From the NCBI GenBank assembly GCA_016870355.1, contig VGBR01000001.1, positions 376,989 through 440,988 of the forward strand: a DNA stretch of 64,000 bases, read 5' to 3'. A program made the position numbers and the translations under genes. The stretch is from Actinomycetota bacterium. Lineage in GTDB: Bacteria; Actinomycetota; Acidimicrobiia; IMCC26256; PALSA-555. Shown in pieces: positions 25,650-32,156 of the stretch. Numbering within the stretch: the first letter of the stretch is position 1; each line of letters starts with the position of its first letter. The notes under the pieces are model-generated. The model searched no databases. It was not told the origin of the DNA and saw nothing but the letters and a program-made list of their open reading frames with translations.

Positions 25650-26036
25650 ATGCCGCCCGACGCGCTCACCATCACACTTGAACCGTTCACGGGCCCGTGG
25701 CCCGACGACGATCCCGACGCGAACTTCAAAGCTGACCTCGCGCTGTACGCATACGTCGATCCGTTGGAGACGATCCGCAACCTGAGCGCCAACATCGACG
25801 TGCCAGTCGGCGCGCTGTGTCACTACGTGCTCGCGAAGTGGGCGACGGCTGGGAGTGGGGGATTGCTCGAGCTCGGCCCCACGATGATCCATCGGCTCGC
25901 GGTGGTGCCCGACGAGGCCGAAGCCGTCGGGACGGACGAGGCGCGTCTTGCCGCGTACGGGCAGCTGCGCCAGATGCTCGGGTGGTTGCGGCATCCGCTC
26001 GAGCATCCCGAGGTCTACGGGTCAGACGGGGACTGA
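25650..26036 (+). CDS. Conserved hypothetical protein
   Basis: 128 residues, soluble, acidic. Recognisable blocks are ETIRNLSANIDVPVGAL, then LAKWATAGSGGLLELG and a C-terminal helical QLRQMLGWLRHPLEHPEVY. The composition and codon use look like a real actinomycete protein, possibly of the small DUF6027-like group, but I cannot confirm a family. ATG at 25650. It converges on the ECF S-component gene, with the two coding ends overlapping by 15 bases. Confidence 0.6.
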   Translation: MPPDALTITLEPFTGPWPDDDPDANFKADLALYAYVDPLETIRNLSANIDVPVGALCHYVLAKWATAGSGGLLELGPTMIHRLAVVPDEAEAVGTDEARLAAYGQLRQMLGWLRHPLEHPEVYGSDGD

Positions 26037-26822
26037 CGGCTCCGTCGGGACCAGCTCGACCGCCGGCTCGAGGCGGTGCGCAAAGCGCCGCAGCGATCGC
26101 AGCAGCGCGCCGCCGGTGAGCAGCAAGAGGATCGCGTTGCAGAGCGCACCCGCGGCGTCCCAGCCGAACGACGTCGCCACGTAGTACGACCAGTAGTGCT
26201 CGGCGGTGCGCACGAGTCCGAGGCCGGGTCGCCAGAGCGTGTCGCCCTTGCCCTGGAGGAATGGCCACGCCCAGAGATTCATCACCGCGCCGTACAGGAA
26301 CCCCCATGCCCAACCGAATGCGGCGATCGCCACCACCTCGACGCGTGGTGACCACCGCTTCGTGCGTTCACCGAGCAGGCCGGCCGTCGCCCCCATCCAC
26401 GACAGGGCCAGCATCTGGAACGGCAGCCAGGGACCGATCCCGCCGGTGATGACGGCCGAGGTCGCCATGGCGGTGATGCCAAGAAGTAGTCCGAAGCGTG
26501 CGCCGAACGCCACGCCGCCGAGGATCACGAGGAAGAAGATCCCGGCGTTGTTGCCCGGCAGGTCGACCAGGCGGAGCAACGCCGCCGACGCGCCGAGCAC
26601 GCCGAGCACCGCGACCATGGCGCCGTTCATCGTGCCGCGCCGAACTTCGAGCGAGACGGCGCCGACCACGAGCGCGCCGATGGCCGCGGCCCACAAGGGC
26701 GCGTCAGTCGCGTGCGCGTCACCGGGCAGCGCCTCCGACGGGAACCAGAACGGGTAGAGGAACGCGGCCGCGCCCACTATGACCATCAACGTGTACACCA
26801 GCGCGGTCGGCACTCGGTTCAT
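26022..26822 (-). CDS. ECF transporter S component (probable cobalamin)
   Basis: 266 residues with about six hydrophobic helices and short loops, the layout of ECF substrate-binding (S) components. Family-like parts are NNAGIFFLVILGGVAFGARFG, PWLPFQMLALSWMGATAGLLG and a GWAWGFLYGAVMNLWAWPF segment. The last helices carry a basic cytoplasmic tail. It is the final gene of the minus-strand T-A-S operon, coupled to the ATPase (TGATG; a GTG one codon earlier at 26825 is also possible). The B12 call is inference from the riboswitch and transcobalamin-like genes next door; CbrT is the known S-component type it would correspond to. Confidence 0.82.
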   Translation of the reverse strand: MNRVPTALVYTLMVIVGAAAFLYPFWFPSEALPGDAHATDAPLWAAAIGALVVGAVSLEVRRGTMNGAMVAVLGVLGASAALLRLVDLPGNNAGIFFLVILGGVAFGARFGLLLGITAMATSAVITGGIGPWLPFQMLALSWMGATAGLLGERTKRWSPRVEVVAIAAFGWAWGFLYGAVMNLWAWPFLQGKGDTLWRPGLGLVRTAEHYWSYYVATSFGWDAAGALCNAILLLLTGGALLRSLRRFAHRLEPAVELVPTEPSVPV

Positions 26823-28384
26823 CACGGCTCCTTCCGCGCCAATGCCGACTCGACTTCCTCGACGGTGAGGAACGGCGGCAGCACTCGCAGCACCTGCGGT
26901 GCGTACAGCGAACCGGCGAGCACGTCACGTGCGTCTCCCTCCGCCACGACCTCACCGTCTCCGAGCACGACGGCACGCGTCGCGCACCGCGCCGCGAGCT
27001 CGACGTCGTGGGTCGCGAGCACGGCTGCGCCACCGGCAGCAGCGTGCTCGTGGGCCATTCGTTCGAGCACGGTGCGCGAGTGCGCGTCCATGCCGCGGGT
27101 GGGCTCGTCGAGCAGCAGGACTTCTGCGCCGCCGACGGCCACCGACGCGATCGCGACGCGTTGGCGTTCGCCGCCCGACAGCGACCGTGGATGCCGGTCC
27201 GCGAGCTGCTCGAGACCCAGGCGCTGGAGCCAGCCGTCGACCGCGCCGTCATCCACGCGCTTGAGGAGCCGAAGCGTCTCCGCGACCTCGCGGCGCACAC
27301 TCGGCGCGAACAGCAGCAAGCCGGGATCCTGGGGGACGTAGCCGACGGTGGCGTCACCGGAGCGCGTGCCGCCGTCGATGTCCTGGAGGCTCGCGAGCGC
27401 GCGCAACAACGTGGTCTTGCCGGCACCGTTGCGGCCCAGGAGTGCGATCACGTCGCCGCGGTGGATGTCCATCGACACCGAGCGCAGCACCTTCTGTCCA
27501 CCGAGTGAGACGTCGAGGCGGTCGGCCTGCATCAACGGTTCGCCGCGAGTGGGCATTGACGGCTCGAACGGCGCGCCGAGCAGCGGATGCGATGTCGCGG
27601 CGGCGCGCGCCTCACGAACCGTGAGCGGGGGCGGATCCCACCCCAGCACGCGTCCGAGACGGGTGACGCTCGGCGCACCCGAGTAGTCCGCGAGCGCAGA
27701 TCTCGGCCGCGCGGGTGCCGACACCCGTCCGCCGTCGAGGATCGTGATCCGGTCCGCGAGCACCGCGGCGCGCTCCAGGCGGTGCTCCGCGAGCACGACG
27801 GTGGTGCCGAGATCGGCGTTGAGTCGACCAAGAGCCGCGAAGACGTCGTCCGCGCCTTGCGGATCGAGCTGCGAAGTCGGCTCGTCCAGCACGAGCGCCG
27901 ACGGTGCCGCGGCGAGCGCACCCGCGATCGCGGCGCGTTGGCGTTCGCCGCCCGAGAGGGTGGCTGGGGCCCGGTCCCGCAGGTGTGCGATCCCGAGCGC
28001 GTCGAGCGCTTCCTCGACGCGCCGCCGCATCGCCGACTCGGTCATGCCCAGGTTCTCCAGCACGAATGCAATGTCGCGTTCGACGTGGTCGACGACGAAC
28101 TGCCCTTCGGGGTCCTGACCGACGAACCCGACCACGTCGGCGAGCTCACGCGGAGCATGCGTCCGCGTGCTCCGTCCGAACGCGACCACCTCACCGCTGA
28201 ACCGGCCGCCCGACGAATGGGGGACGAGTCCGTTCACGCACCGCAGCAGCGTGCTCTTGCCCGAGCCCGAGCTTCCTGCGCACACGAGCACCTCGCCCGC
28301 AGTGATGCCGAGCTCGACGTCGTGCAGCGCGACGTCAGCGTCGGGGTACGCGAACGAGACGCCGTCGAAGGTGACGGCGCTCAT
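26822..28384 (-). CDS. ECF transporter ATPase with two fused ATP-binding domains
   Basis: 520 residues containing two complete ABC domains, so EcfA1 and EcfA2 are one protein. Domain 1 has Walker A GSSGSGKS at 37-44, signature LSGGE at 143-147 and Walker B ALVLDE at 163-168. Domain 2 has Walker A GRNGAGKT at 317-324, signature LSGGE at 402-406 and Walker B VLLLDE at 422-427. Both should hydrolyse ATP. The ATG at 28384 overlaps the T-component stop (28381) by four bases. It powers uptake through the T and S components. Confidence 0.92.
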   Translation of the reverse strand: MSAVTFDGVSFAYPDADVALHDVELGITAGEVLVCAGSSGSGKSTLLRCVNGLVPHSSGGRFSGEVVAFGRSTRTHAPRELADVVGFVGQDPEGQFVVDHVERDIAFVLENLGMTESAMRRRVEEALDALGIAHLRDRAPATLSGGERQRAAIAGALAAAPSALVLDEPTSQLDPQGADDVFAALGRLNADLGTTVVLAEHRLERAAVLADRITILDGGRVSAPARPRSALADYSGAPSVTRLGRVLGWDPPPLTVREARAAATSHPLLGAPFEPSMPTRGEPLMQADRLDVSLGGQKVLRSVSMDIHRGDVIALLGRNGAGKTTLLRALASLQDIDGGTRSGDATVGYVPQDPGLLLFAPSVRREVAETLRLLKRVDDGAVDGWLQRLGLEQLADRHPRSLSGGERQRVAIASVAVGGAEVLLLDEPTRGMDAHSRTVLERMAHEHAAAGGAAVLATHDVELAARCATRAVVLGDGEVVAEGDARDVLAGSLYAPQVLRVLPPFLTVEEVESALARKEP

Positions 28385-29514
28385 GCGGCCTCGGCGGCGC
28401 GGGTGCGAATCGTGACGGGGGAGTGAACCGCGACGGGCAATGAGCGGCGCGCGCAGGGTGCCAGCAACGCCAGCAGCGCAACCAACGGCAGCACGTTCGC
28501 ACTGGGGAACGCGAGTGGGTCCACTGGCCACTGCAGCGTCTCATCGCCGGACAGGCTGGCGACCGCCAGGGCGACGGGTGCGACGCAGGCCGCGGCCACG
28601 GTGGTCCAGTCCGCGGCAGTCATCCGCCGGCGTCGGTACCTCGTGCGGGTCGACGCGCCCGACACGAGGATCGTGGCCGCGGCCACTGCGATCGCGCCGA
28701 TGATTCCGAGCACGAGCGCGGTGGTGCCCGCACGCGCGACGAGTGCGACGAACGCGGCCGCAAGTGCCAGCAGCGCACCCGCCCCGCACCACCCGGCGAG
28801 GCGCTCGCGACGCGCAGGCGGCCGGTGTCCGAAGCCACGGGCGTCGAGCGACTCCGACAATGAGACGGCGCGCTCCAGTCCGCTCTCGAGCACCGGGACG
28901 AGCCGTCGCAACAGGCGTCCACGCCCCACTCTTCGTCCGCCGGTGCGGGCGCGGTCGGCCTCACCGACGTCGTGCGCAGCCGTGATGATCGACGGGACGA
29001 ACGCCAGCGCGACCACGATCACCAGGCCGAGCTCGTGAAACGCACGCGGCGCGGCCTGCACCAGCTCGTAGTGCGAGGCGACCGCATTGAATGCCGCGAA
29101 CACCGCCACGATCCCCACGATCACGAGGCTCTCGGCTGTGGCGTAGGTGACGATCTCGGTCTGGATGTCGCCGCCGACGGTGAACCCGCCCAGCAGCTCA
29201 GGGAGCGTGAACGACGGCGTAGTGAAGAGGACGTCGTTCCCGCCGTGCGCGGTGGCCGCGGTGAGGATCACGCGCAGCACTCCGAAGAGGATCGCGACGC
29301 CCACCAGGAGCGGGAAGGCTCGGGCGAACGGTCCGCCGAGGCCGTGGGCTTCGACGACGACCCAGGCGATCGCGATGACGACAAGCACGTAGAGCGGATT
29401 GGGTGCGAGCTGCACCGCGGTCGCGCCGGCGAGCGCCCAGAGCAGCCAGGTGAGCGCGTGCCACGGTCGATCGGTGGGTGTGATCGCTGGCGAGGTTTGC
29501 GAGGAGTCGGACAT
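28381..29514 (-). CDS. ECF transporter T component (CbiQ/EcfT family)
   Basis: 377 residues from the ATG at 29514, longer than the usual 260-residue EcfT because of extra C-terminal helices. The coupling region is present: a basic stretch after EADRARTGGRR and the ARG motif in SESLDARGFGHR, which contacts the two ATPase domains. It is the first gene of the T-A-S operon. Its start lies only about 40 bases from the 5' edge of a riboswitch read on the opposite strand, so its own promoter must lie inside that leader region. No riboswitch is seen on this strand. Confidence 0.85.
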   Translation of the reverse strand: MSDSSQTSPAITPTDRPWHALTWLLWALAGATAVQLAPNPLYVLVVIAIAWVVVEAHGLGGPFARAFPLLVGVAILFGVLRVILTAATAHGGNDVLFTTPSFTLPELLGGFTVGGDIQTEIVTYATAESLVIVGIVAVFAAFNAVASHYELVQAAPRAFHELGLVIVVALAFVPSIITAAHDVGEADRARTGGRRVGRGRLLRRLVPVLESGLERAVSLSESLDARGFGHRPPARRERLAGWCGAGALLALAAAFVALVARAGTTALVLGIIGAIAVAAATILVSGASTRTRYRRRRMTAADWTTVAAACVAPVALAVASLSGDETLQWPVDPLAFPSANVLPLVALLALLAPCARRSLPVAVHSPVTIRTRAAEAA

Positions 29515-29550
29515 CGGTCGTACGGTCACGCCTGACAGCGGTTGCGCGCA

Positions 29551-29705
29551 GCCCGGATGCTGCGTGCGGTCCCCGGTTCGCCGGGGACGGGGGAAGTCGG
29601 TGCGAGACCGACGCTGACCCGCAACTGTGAGTGGCTCTGCAGCCGCCGGACGAACCGGCAACTGCACACCGCGAGCCAGGCTACCTGCCGCCGTCCGCCG
29701 GGCCA
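29551..29705 (+). promoter_or_regulatory. Cobalamin (AdoCbl-type) riboswitch
   Basis: The conserved core is easy to read: GGGGGAAGTCGGTGCGAGACC, then GCTGACCCGCAACTGTGA, and a 3' B12 box AGCCAGGCTACCTGCC at about 29674-29690, with a GC-clamped stem at the 5' side (GTCCCCGGttcgCCGGGGAC). Spacing and order fit the cobalamin riboswitch class. It lies 80 bases before the ATG at 29785. A CCACC-ttcg-GGTGG hairpin and the GGCGGAGGAAC ribosome site follow, so control is probably of translation or of early termination, lowering expression of the secreted pair when B12 is plentiful. Confidence 0.93.
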
Positions 29706-29784
29706 CCGGCGCTCCCGTTGGGAGGCCACCTTCGGGTGGTCGTGATACGGCCCTCGTGGACCAGGGGCTGGCGGAGGAACACTC

Positions 29785-31347
29785 ATGGCTCGTCGTCCCC
29801 GTCGCGCGGCGTCGTTCGTCGCGCTCTTAGCACTCGTTGCAGCACTCGTTGCAGCACTCGTTCCCGCCGCGCTCTCCGGCGCGGCGTCGCCGGCTGCGGA
29901 GGCCGCGCTCTCGTGGCTTCGGGCGCAGCAGCAGGCCGACGGAGGCTTCGAAGTCCTGGGCTTCCCGGGCTTCGAGACGTCGGACGCGGTCTTCGCGGTC
30001 GCTTCCGGCGCGCAGACCGGCCCCTGGGACGCCGAGACCGCGCTCGGAGCAGTCGCGGCAACACGTGTCGGGGGCATCGGCAACAGCCCGCTGGACCACC
30101 TGGACAACCTTGCTGACACGCCGATCACGAAGGGCCAGGCAGCCAAGGTCATCGTGTTGGCGACCAACCCCCTCGGGATCGACGCCACGCAGTTCGACCC
30201 AAGGTGTGACGGCGGGACGACCAACCTGGTGACGGTCCTCGGCGCACCAGGTGTGGATGGCCAGTTCGGGTTCTCGCTCGGCGCGTTCAACTCGGTCCTG
30301 TACGCGGCGCGCGCGTACGCGTTGACCGCCGGTGCCGGGCAGCTTCCGGACGCCAGCGTCACGACGATCCGCAACGCACAGAAGTCGGACGGCTCATGGT
30401 CGTTCGACGGCAGCAGCGTCGGCACGGGAGGCGACATCGACACGACGGCGCAGGCAGCCCTCACCCTGTTGGAGGACGGCGACATCCTTGCCACCGATGC
30501 CGACGTGGATGAGGCACTTGATTACCTCGAGGGCCAGCAGCAGGGCAGTGGGGCGTGGCAGTCGTTCTTCGTCGACGACGCGAACTCGACCGCGATGGCG
30601 CTCCTCGCGCTCGGTGTCGCGGGTCGCACCACGACGCTTGCCGCCGGCGATGCGTGGCTCGCGTCCCAGCAACAGGGCGACGGTCGGATCGCGAGTCAGA
30701 ACGACGGGTTCGGCATCAACACCTTCGCCACGTCACAGGCAATCCAGGGACTCGTGCGGCTCGACGTGCCCCGCGCGACGTCGCCGATCGCGATGGCATG
30801 TTCGGACGGCGACGGCATCACCGACGAGACCGAGTGGGGTGCGCCGAACGGTGGCGACGGGAACAACGACGGAGTGCCTGACACCGATCAGGCGGACGTC
30901 GCGTCTCTTCCCGACGTGGTCACCGGTGGCTATGTCACGATCGACTCCGCGGCCGGCGCAGTCGAGGACATCACGTCGGTCAACCCGTCGTCACTGGCCG
31001 CGCTCCCGACGGGTGTCACCTTGCCTCGGGGTGCCCTGCAGTTCACGATCGCAGGCGTCGGTGTCGGTGGCACCGTCACCGTGCAGGTCACGTTCCACGG
31101 CGGACCTGCGTTGACGAAGTACTACAAGCTTCGCGGCGGGGTGTGGACCGACTTCAGCGCCAACGCGACGTTCGCCGGCAACGTCATCACGTTGACCCTC
31201 GTCGACGGCGGCGCGGGCGATGCCGGCGGGGTCGACGGCGAGATCGTCGACCCGAGCGGACCGGCGGCAGTGAGCGTAGGCGCCGGGGGCGGCACCGGTG
31301 GTGTGCCGAACGCGATCGTCGCCCACCCCAGCAACCTCACCGGATGA
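29785..31347 (+). CDS. Secreted terpenoid-cyclase/transcobalamin alpha-barrel-like protein with choice-of-anchor-U domain
   Basis: 520 residues. Signal peptide 1-35, containing a short tandem duplication (LVAALVAALV). Residues 38-330 hold alpha/alpha-barrel repeats of the prenyltransferase/squalene-oxidase type (SWLRAQQQADGGF; IRNAQKSDGSWSF; YLEGQQQGSGAWQSF; WLASQQQGDGRI), the fold of the B12-binding alpha-domain of transcobalamin and intrinsic factor. Residues 341-371 form an Asp-rich calcium-loop segment (DGDGITDETEW). Residues 375-495 match a choice-of-anchor-U beta domain (DGEIVDPSGPA). The start has GGAGG eight bases upstream and sits behind the cobalamin riboswitch. It is coupled to the DUF4430 gene by an ATGA overlap. 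B12 binding is inferred. Confidence 0.85.
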   Translation: MARRPRRAASFVALLALVAALVAALVPAALSGAASPAAEAALSWLRAQQQADGGFEVLGFPGFETSDAVFAVASGAQTGPWDAETALGAVAATRVGGIGNSPLDHLDNLADTPITKGQAAKVIVLATNPLGIDATQFDPRCDGGTTNLVTVLGAPGVDGQFGFSLGAFNSVLYAARAYALTAGAGQLPDASVTTIRNAQKSDGSWSFDGSSVGTGGDIDTTAQAALTLLEDGDILATDADVDEALDYLEGQQQGSGAWQSFFVDDANSTAMALLALGVAGRTTTLAAGDAWLASQQQGDGRIASQNDGFGINTFATSQAIQGLVRLDVPRATSPIAMACSDGDGITDETEWGAPNGGDGNNDGVPDTDQADVASLPDVVTGGYVTIDSAAGAVEDITSVNPSSLAALPTGVTLPRGALQFTIAGVGVGGTVTVQVTFHGGPALTKYYKLRGGVWTDFSANATFAGNVITLTLVDGGAGDAGGVDGEIVDPSGPAAVSVGAGGGTGGVPNAIVAHPSNLTG

Positions 31348-32156
31348 TGCGCAGCATCCGGCGTGCGATTGCGCTCACGGCACTCGTTGTTGCGGGTGCG
31401 GCGCTCCAACCCGCCGCACCCGCGCACGCGGCGACAAGTCGCGCCGTGATCGTGATCGGCAACAGCACGTACACGGTCTCGTTCAACGGGACCATCACGG
31501 GACTTCAAGCGCTGCAGATGGTCGCGAGCGTCGAGACGGTCGGGTACGGCGCGGGCACTGCGGTGTGCAAGATCAACGGCGTCGGCAACCCCGCAGTTCC
31601 TGGGCAGTGCCTCGGCGAGACCAGTGGGCAGTACTGGTCGTACTGGCGCTCGCCTCCGGGTTCGAATGGTTGGACCTACTCGGGACGCGGCGCCGGGAGC
31701 ACGACGGTCTCTGACGGCTCGGTGGAGGGATGGGCGTTCGGGTCGGGCTCACCTCCTCCATACCGCTCGTTCTGCGACGTCGCCGGCTGCGCGCCACCAC
31801 CGCCACCGACCACGGCACCGACCACCAGTGCCGCGTCACCAGGAGGGTCGTCGGGGAGCGCCGCGTCCTCGGGTGACGATTCCACCCGCGGCGGTGATGC
31901 CTCCTCGAAGGGATCCGCGGCGGCGTCCGAGGACCCGTCGTCATCGTCGGCGTCGGCCGATGACAAGGGAGGCGGGAACGAGGGGAGTGACGACTCGGAG
32001 TCGGCCGCGGACACGCCGAGCGGAGGCCGCCCGAACGTCGCCGCGGATGACGGCGATGGTCTCTCGACGGGGACGGTTGCCGTCGCGGCCGCGGTCGTTG
32101 GCCTCGGTGGCGCGGGCGTCGTGCTCCGTCGACGGCGGATGCGACTGCTGCGCTAG
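31344..32156 (+). CDS. Surface-tethered DUF4430 (transcobalamin beta-domain-like) protein
   Basis: 270 residues. Signal peptide 1-30 ending AHA. Residues 33-140 are a DUF4430-type domain: TGLQALQMVASVETVGYG, a Cys75/Cys89 pair and GQYWSYWRS followed by NGWTYSGRGAG, the block seen in the beta-domain of transcobalamin and intrinsic factor. Residues 150-238 are a Pro then Ser/Gly/Asp-rich linker. A hydrophobic helix at 242-261 followed by RRRRMRLLR forms a membrane anchor; no LPxTG is seen. The domain would thus stand off the cell surface. It starts inside the stop of the alpha-barrel gene and shares its riboswitch. Confidence 0.85.
   Translation: MMRSIRRAIALTALVVAGAALQPAAPAHAATSRAVIVIGNSTYTVSFNGTITGLQALQMVASVETVGYGAGTAVCKINGVGNPAVPGQCLGETSGQYWSYWRSPPGSNGWTYSGRGAGSTTVSDGSVEGWAFGSGSPPPYRSFCDVAGCAPPPPPTTAPTTSAASPGGSSGSAASSGDDSTRGGDASSKGSAAASEDPSSSSASADDKGGGNEGSDDSESAADTPSGGRPNVAADDGDGLSTGTVAVAAAVVGLGGAGVVLRRRRMRLLR

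Follow-up and report, generated by a model that had tools for sequence, protein, structure and literature searches.

A split transcobalamin-like protein pair beside an ECF transporter, a proposed riboswitch-linked system for B12 capture and import in Acidimicrobiia

In the animal cobalamin (vitamin B12) carriers transcobalamin and intrinsic factor, an alpha/alpha toroid and a beta domain are joined in one chain. Burroughs et al. (2007) predicted B12-scavenging surface proteins in Gram-positive bacteria, consisting of beta-grasp (SLBB) and toroid domains, often fused and encoded with CbiO/CbiQ, and proposed that animals gained their transcobalamin-like domains from Gram-positives (PMC1796856). 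Here we analyzed a 64,000-nucleotide stretch of DNA (hereafter the window) from an Acidimicrobiia bacterium (assembly GCA_016870355.1, contig VGBR01000001.1, positions 376,989 to 440,988), in which a cobalamin riboswitch is followed by the genes of a secreted toroid protein (P1) and a secreted, membrane-tethered SLBB protein (P2), next to those of an energy-coupling factor (ECF) transporter. Very probably, the function of this locus is the capture and import of B12.

Among other systems for B12 acquisition, BtuG operates with the TonB-dependent transporter BtuB. The BtuG surface lipoproteins of Bacteroides, to which the present pair can be likened by description, perform extracellular high-affinity B12 capture ahead of the transporter (PMC13374852). 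ECF-CbrT of Lactobacillus delbrueckii is a demonstrated ECF cobalamin importer, whereas the ECF transporter of the window is a proposed one; CbrT binds B12 without extracellular partners (PMC5997447), and the S component of the window showed no detectable match to solved S components, CbrT included. The SCO2321/SCO2322 proteins of Streptomyces and relatives (NCBIfam NF053823 and NF040672), whose names denote no function, likewise comprise a toroid and a small domain in related ECF clusters. The P2 genes at two of the loci collected in this study (L124 and L135) exceeded the SCO2322 cut-off, whereas P2 of the window remained below it (24.9 bits; cut-off 85). The openly licensed literature searched, on DUF4430, CbrT and the regulons of cobalamin riboswitches, yielded no experimental work on a pair of this kind.

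The locus shares with the proteins of Burroughs et al. (2007) a beta-grasp domain with a hairpin insert, a toroid partner, the surface location, CbiO/CbiQ-like neighbours and hosts usually devoid of B12 synthesis (PMC1796856). The parallel to the animal carriers is not new: together with the toroid, CbiO and CbiQ, it was already put forward for Gram-positives in 2007. The window differs in that its toroid and SLBB domains are encoded by separate, coupled genes, in the membrane-tethering of the SLBB protein and in the choice-of-anchor U domain on the toroid protein. Furthermore, the 2007 set, described with no mention of riboswitches, came mainly from low-GC Gram-positives and planctomycetes (PMC1796856), whereas the present set comes from Acidimicrobiia and Chloroflexota and is riboswitch-linked. 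With the animal carriers, the pair appears from structural models to share both the alpha/alpha toroid and the beta-domain fold, whereas it consists of two chains instead of one and has no sequence-level match to them. Three points are new here: in Acidimicrobiia the pair is split, coupled and tethered; riboswitches are consistently linked to it in two phyla; and a structural model provides evidence on P2 that sequence methods could not supply.

Gene order and the cobalamin riboswitch

The features of the locus are as follows (positions in the window):

26022-26825, minus strand, ECF S component, 267 amino acids (aa) (PF12822, 43.8 bits, cut-off 30.7)
26822-28384, minus strand, fused EcfA-EcfA' (A-A) ATPase, 520 aa (two ABC_tran domains; TIGR01166 cbiO, 268.2 bits, cut-off 211.8)
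28381-29514, minus strand, EcfT-like membrane protein (T), 377 aa (assigned from position, hydrophobic segments and conserved linkage; no Pfam match)
29567-29690, plus strand, cobalamin riboswitch aptamer (RF00174; cmscan 52.8 bits, E 2.7e-10, above the gathering cut-off of 31.5)
29785-31347, plus strand, P1, secreted alpha/alpha-toroid protein, 520 aa (toroid profiles in the family; model of a homologue)
31006-31266, plus strand, choice-of-anchor U domain of P1, residues 408-494 (NF041766, 72.5 bits, cut-off 32)
31344-32156, plus strand, P2, secreted transcobalamin-like beta-grasp (SLBB) protein with a long linker and a C-terminal membrane helix, 270 aa
31410-31817, plus strand, SLBB domain of P2 as modelled (AlphaFold model; transcobalamin beta-domain matches in the PDB)

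The riboswitch is the only RF00174 copy in the whole genome, and P1 starts approximately 95 bases 3' of its end; folding the leader RNA gave no informative signal (z -1.1). The start codon of P2 overlaps the P1 stop codon (ATGA), so that the two genes form a translationally coupled pair, in good agreement with a first-pass annotation of the window, which had described a cobalamin riboswitch leading such a pair. The divergent, full ECF transporter (T, fused A-A and S) described there was likewise recovered: S, T and the ATPases are encoded together, as in the dedicated ECF type, with S and A-A identified by profile and T by position and linkage. The genome encodes no PF12822 protein other than the S component. 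Because the ECF genes, beginning at 29514, run opposite to P1 and P2, the riboswitch could serve only the latter two within the window.

Folds of P1 and P2

P1 has an N-terminal hydrophobic signal segment, no membrane helix at its C-terminal end, and Q-rich DG motifs at residues 48, 199 and 295. Since every P1 homologue scanned (25 of 25 family members) matched the squalene-hopene cyclase toroid profile (SQHop_cyclase_C), P1 was assigned as an alpha/alpha toroid, spanning residues ~36-335. The toroid of a P1 homologue was modelled at high confidence, and its matches were terpene cyclases and transcobalamin. Neither P1 nor 25 homologues matched PF01122 (Cobalamin_bind), the animal toroid family, and a Streptomyces P1 homologue gave 15.4 bits, under the cut-off of 25. 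The initial description of P1 as a secreted alpha/alpha barrel with Q-rich repeats was correct as far as it went, the additional choice-of-anchor U domain having been missed.

P2 has one hydrophobic segment at the N-terminus and a hydrophobic helix towards the C-terminus (residues 243-261), consistent with its earlier description as a secreted protein with a C-terminal membrane anchor. Its homologues gave no meaningful Pfam family match, none of the 35 family members matched DUF4430 (PF14478) at E<=1, and PDB sequence searches with P1 alone, P2 alone or the P2 profile provided no route to transcobalamin. The AlphaFold (AF2) model of P2, built from an alignment of 35 homologues, reached a mean predicted local distance difference test score (pLDDT) of 90.0 and a predicted template modelling score (pTM) of 0.81. 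It comprised strands at 10-16 and 19-25, a helix at 31-36, and strands at 41-46, 49-55, 75-81 and 104-111, that is, the order strand, strand, helix, hairpin, strand, strand. A hairpin after the helix is the mark of the transcobalamin-like SLBB clade (Burroughs et al., 2007; PMC1796856), and P2 as modelled has this hairpin.

When the P2 model was compared with the PDB, the first 16 matches were transcobalamin chains, the isolated beta domain or the bacterial protein 3u7z (probability 1.00), after which E jumped from 0.007 to 0.29; the template modelling (TM) score over the target against the transcobalamin beta domain 5no0 was 0.67. The fold of P2 was thus assigned by structure where sequence methods fail, and the DUF4430-type label given to it at first rests on the fold only: the transcobalamin beta-domain matches bear it out, and the sequence searches do not. 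Cys75 and Cys89 were invariant in the 35-homologue alignment, and may form a disulphide.

In the signal-peptide region of P1 (29829-29863), the 12-base stretch GCACTCGTTGCA occurs about three times in tandem and encodes LVAALVAALVP. The mode of anchoring varies among P1 proteins: a homologue at L060 (6648-7682, minus strand) stops directly past the toroid and bears a lipobox-like signal (LSAC), the sequence of which suggests a lipoprotein, and others terminate in LPxTG-like or membrane segments. At L062 (9709-10419) and L063 (8861-10579), a second toroid paralogue lies directly 3' of P2, and some systems may have two toroid cups per SLBB lid.

Conservation, natural fusions and genome context

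In a sample of 149 genomes, made up of the window's own and its relatives, P2 homologues were present in 44 at E<=0.01, approximately 35 of them at E<1e-9. A total of 80 P2 loci were collected from named genomes, 32 of which had flanks sufficient for testing. A P1-type toroid stood beside P2 in every testable locus (32/32), and the complete T, A-A and S set in all but one (31/32); together with the natural fusions described below, these counts match the association with a toroid and CbiO/CbiQ-like proteins that characterizes the transcobalamin-like SLBB clade. The cluster was found in Acidimicrobiia, Anaerolineae and other Chloroflexota, Streptomyces, Glycomyces, Nanopelagicales and others. 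Cobalamin-clan riboswitches accompany the cluster in another 29 genomes of the class to which the window belongs, at 11 of 12 Chloroflexota loci and at 7 of 9 loci from other actinobacteria, two of these, from Streptomyces, having the riboswitch on the opposite strand. Most of the loci devoid of a riboswitch were truncated at the end of a contig or locus, or contained no P2 matches other than weak and doubtful ones. The search for the same gene set near cobalamin riboswitches elsewhere, suggested in the first-pass annotation, thus found the five genes kept together in Acidimicrobiia, Chloroflexota and other actinobacteria, with the pair conserved alongside the ECF genes. T was co-directional with P2 in 23 of the 31 testable loci, and since at L100/L060 a riboswitch heads P2-P1-T-AA-S on a single strand, the ECF genes are tied to B12.

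The toroid and the SLBB domain also occur in a single reading frame, and in both orders: toroid-SLBB at L053/L084, which represent one contig, SLBB-toroid at the Chloroflexota loci L094, L105, L112 and L117, and, at the Streptomyces loci L119 and L125, SLBB-toroid-toroid followed by a membrane segment at the C-terminus. The L053 fusion unites exactly P1 and P2, and its cellular form is uncertain because a sorting-signal-like and membrane-like stretch separates the domains. Its model, based on an alignment (A5) of 24 toroid rows, 19 SLBB rows and two pairs read through a stop codon, showed both domains at high confidence and a disordered linker, and was aligned by Foldseek along transcobalamin/intrinsic factor over ~550-600 columns (E ~1e-6 to 1e-4). 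As modelled, both folds are present in this fusion, in transcobalamin order. Several Chloroflexota and Streptomyces loci encode a second, separate SLBB protein, and in Chloroflexota the separate copy is the one closer to P2. In such loci, the lid of the toroid may be a different SLBB domain, with P2 as an extra partner.

A tandem pair of cobalamin riboswitches (L094:1018-1186 and 1335-1478) lies 5' of one SLBB-toroid gene, and a further toroid-like gene (L119:5666-7267; L125:5678-7483 (-)) diverges from the Streptomyces cluster, with the riboswitch on that gene's strand. Two of the collected records are probably mis-titled: L072 (CAMDCC010000072.1), titled Bifidobacterium breve, matches a genome of the window's own genus (G002), and L075 (QEUQ01000050.1), titled Acidobacteria bacterium, matches one of the window's class (G062).

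The genome carrying the window encodes the B12-dependent enzymes MetH, methylmalonyl-CoA mutase and NrdJ, each over its curated cut-off, and was found to contain neither of the B12 synthesis markers CobS and CbiC. CbiM, a BtuF-type binding protein and BacA were also missing from it, and the single genome match to FecCD (BtuC-type) was below the cut-off and resembled a zinc-type permease. As the assembly is 96% complete, these absences are strong, not absolute. By elimination, the locus is the best candidate for B12 entry. Among the 149 genomes, CbiC and strong P2 matches did not overlap, a pattern that was not significant (p ~0.06).

Proposed mechanism and alternative explanations

From the riboswitch, genes, folds, clustering and sole-importer context computed herein, we infer that the pair would bind cobalamin, close over it and hand it over to the S component. 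At low intracellular cobalamin, the riboswitch would permit the expression of P1 and P2; P1 would be secreted, and P2 would be held at the outer face of the membrane by its flexible linker. The toroid as a cup and P2 as a tethered lid would then sandwich cobalamin outside the membrane, from where it would be passed on to the dedicated ECF importer (S, T and A-A). We regard this account as a whole, in which a riboswitch-controlled toroid cup and a tethered lid feed an ECF importer, as likely, and consider the clamping of B12 between P1 and P2 somewhat favored. Whether the importer would depend on such an extracellular clamp, with a released toroid and a membrane-tethered lid forming a split transcobalamin in trans, appears evenly balanced.

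Several observations weigh against this account. The toroid fold is not specific to B12, and terpene cyclases match it too; the window proteins have no sequence match to DUF4430 or the animal cobalamin-binding families; and a profile of 22 S proteins led to no PDB entry of known substrate related in sequence to the S component. In addition, the L053 fusion model showed no transcobalamin docking, with a root-mean-square deviation of 14-20 Å and a TM-score over the target of 0.43-0.50, in a model with mostly unpaired alignment rows, a long disordered linker, no ligand and no interdomain predicted error. The structure prediction against transcobalamin proposed at the outset thus recovered both folds, and the closed arrangement was not reproduced in this weakly paired, ligand-free model. 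The missing docking would also fit an arrangement in which P1 and P2 both serve B12 capture with no joint clamp, either by separate binding or with P2 as a docking or relay protein, P1 as a scavenger and serial transfer to S. The main reason to consider such a relay is the second SLBB domain in the toroid systems of many Chloroflexota and Streptomyces loci: one of the two is fused to the toroid or only weakly related, the other is separate and P2-like, so that the lid may not be the orthologue of P2. Most loci of the window's class, however, have only one SLBB per toroid, and the L053 frame joins precisely P1 and P2. We thus consider capture with no joint clamp unlikely, if still a serious contender.

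With respect to the cargo, cobalt, another metal or a B12 precursor might be imported instead of cobalamin, considering that the ATPase is CbiO-like, that the PDB match 3u7z is titled putative metal binding protein, and that the precursor cobinamide is a substrate of ECF-CbrT (PMC5997447). However, the genome lacks CbiM; without CbiC, there would be no corrin ring synthesis to use cobalt; CobS for completing cobinamide is missing; and the S component falls in PF12822. Taken together, import of such cargo seems quite improbable. Squalene-hopene cyclases are the best sequence matches of P1, which could accordingly be taken for an exported terpene-cyclase-type enzyme unrelated to B12 binding. Squalene-hopene and terpene cyclases carry a conserved aspartate-rich catalytic motif, but this stretch varies among the P1 homologues (DIDTT, DINTT, RIGST and DAEHT), and the signal segment of P1 and its linkage with the riboswitch and the ECF genes make a cyclase scarcely credible.

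The capture and import of B12 by this locus would provide a concrete candidate importer for bacteria without a recognised one. The analysis also delineates a family linked to riboswitches, with members in Acidimicrobiia, Chloroflexota, Streptomyces and Nanopelagicales that stand in the databases unnamed or as SCO2321/SCO2322. With a natural dissected version and fusions in both orders, the 2007 proposal of a bacterial origin of animal transcobalamin is now directly testable. Furthermore, the view that ECF importers do without an extracellular binding protein is called into question: if true, the two-protein clamp would depart from the rule by which ECF S components capture their substrates with no help from binding proteins outside the cell.

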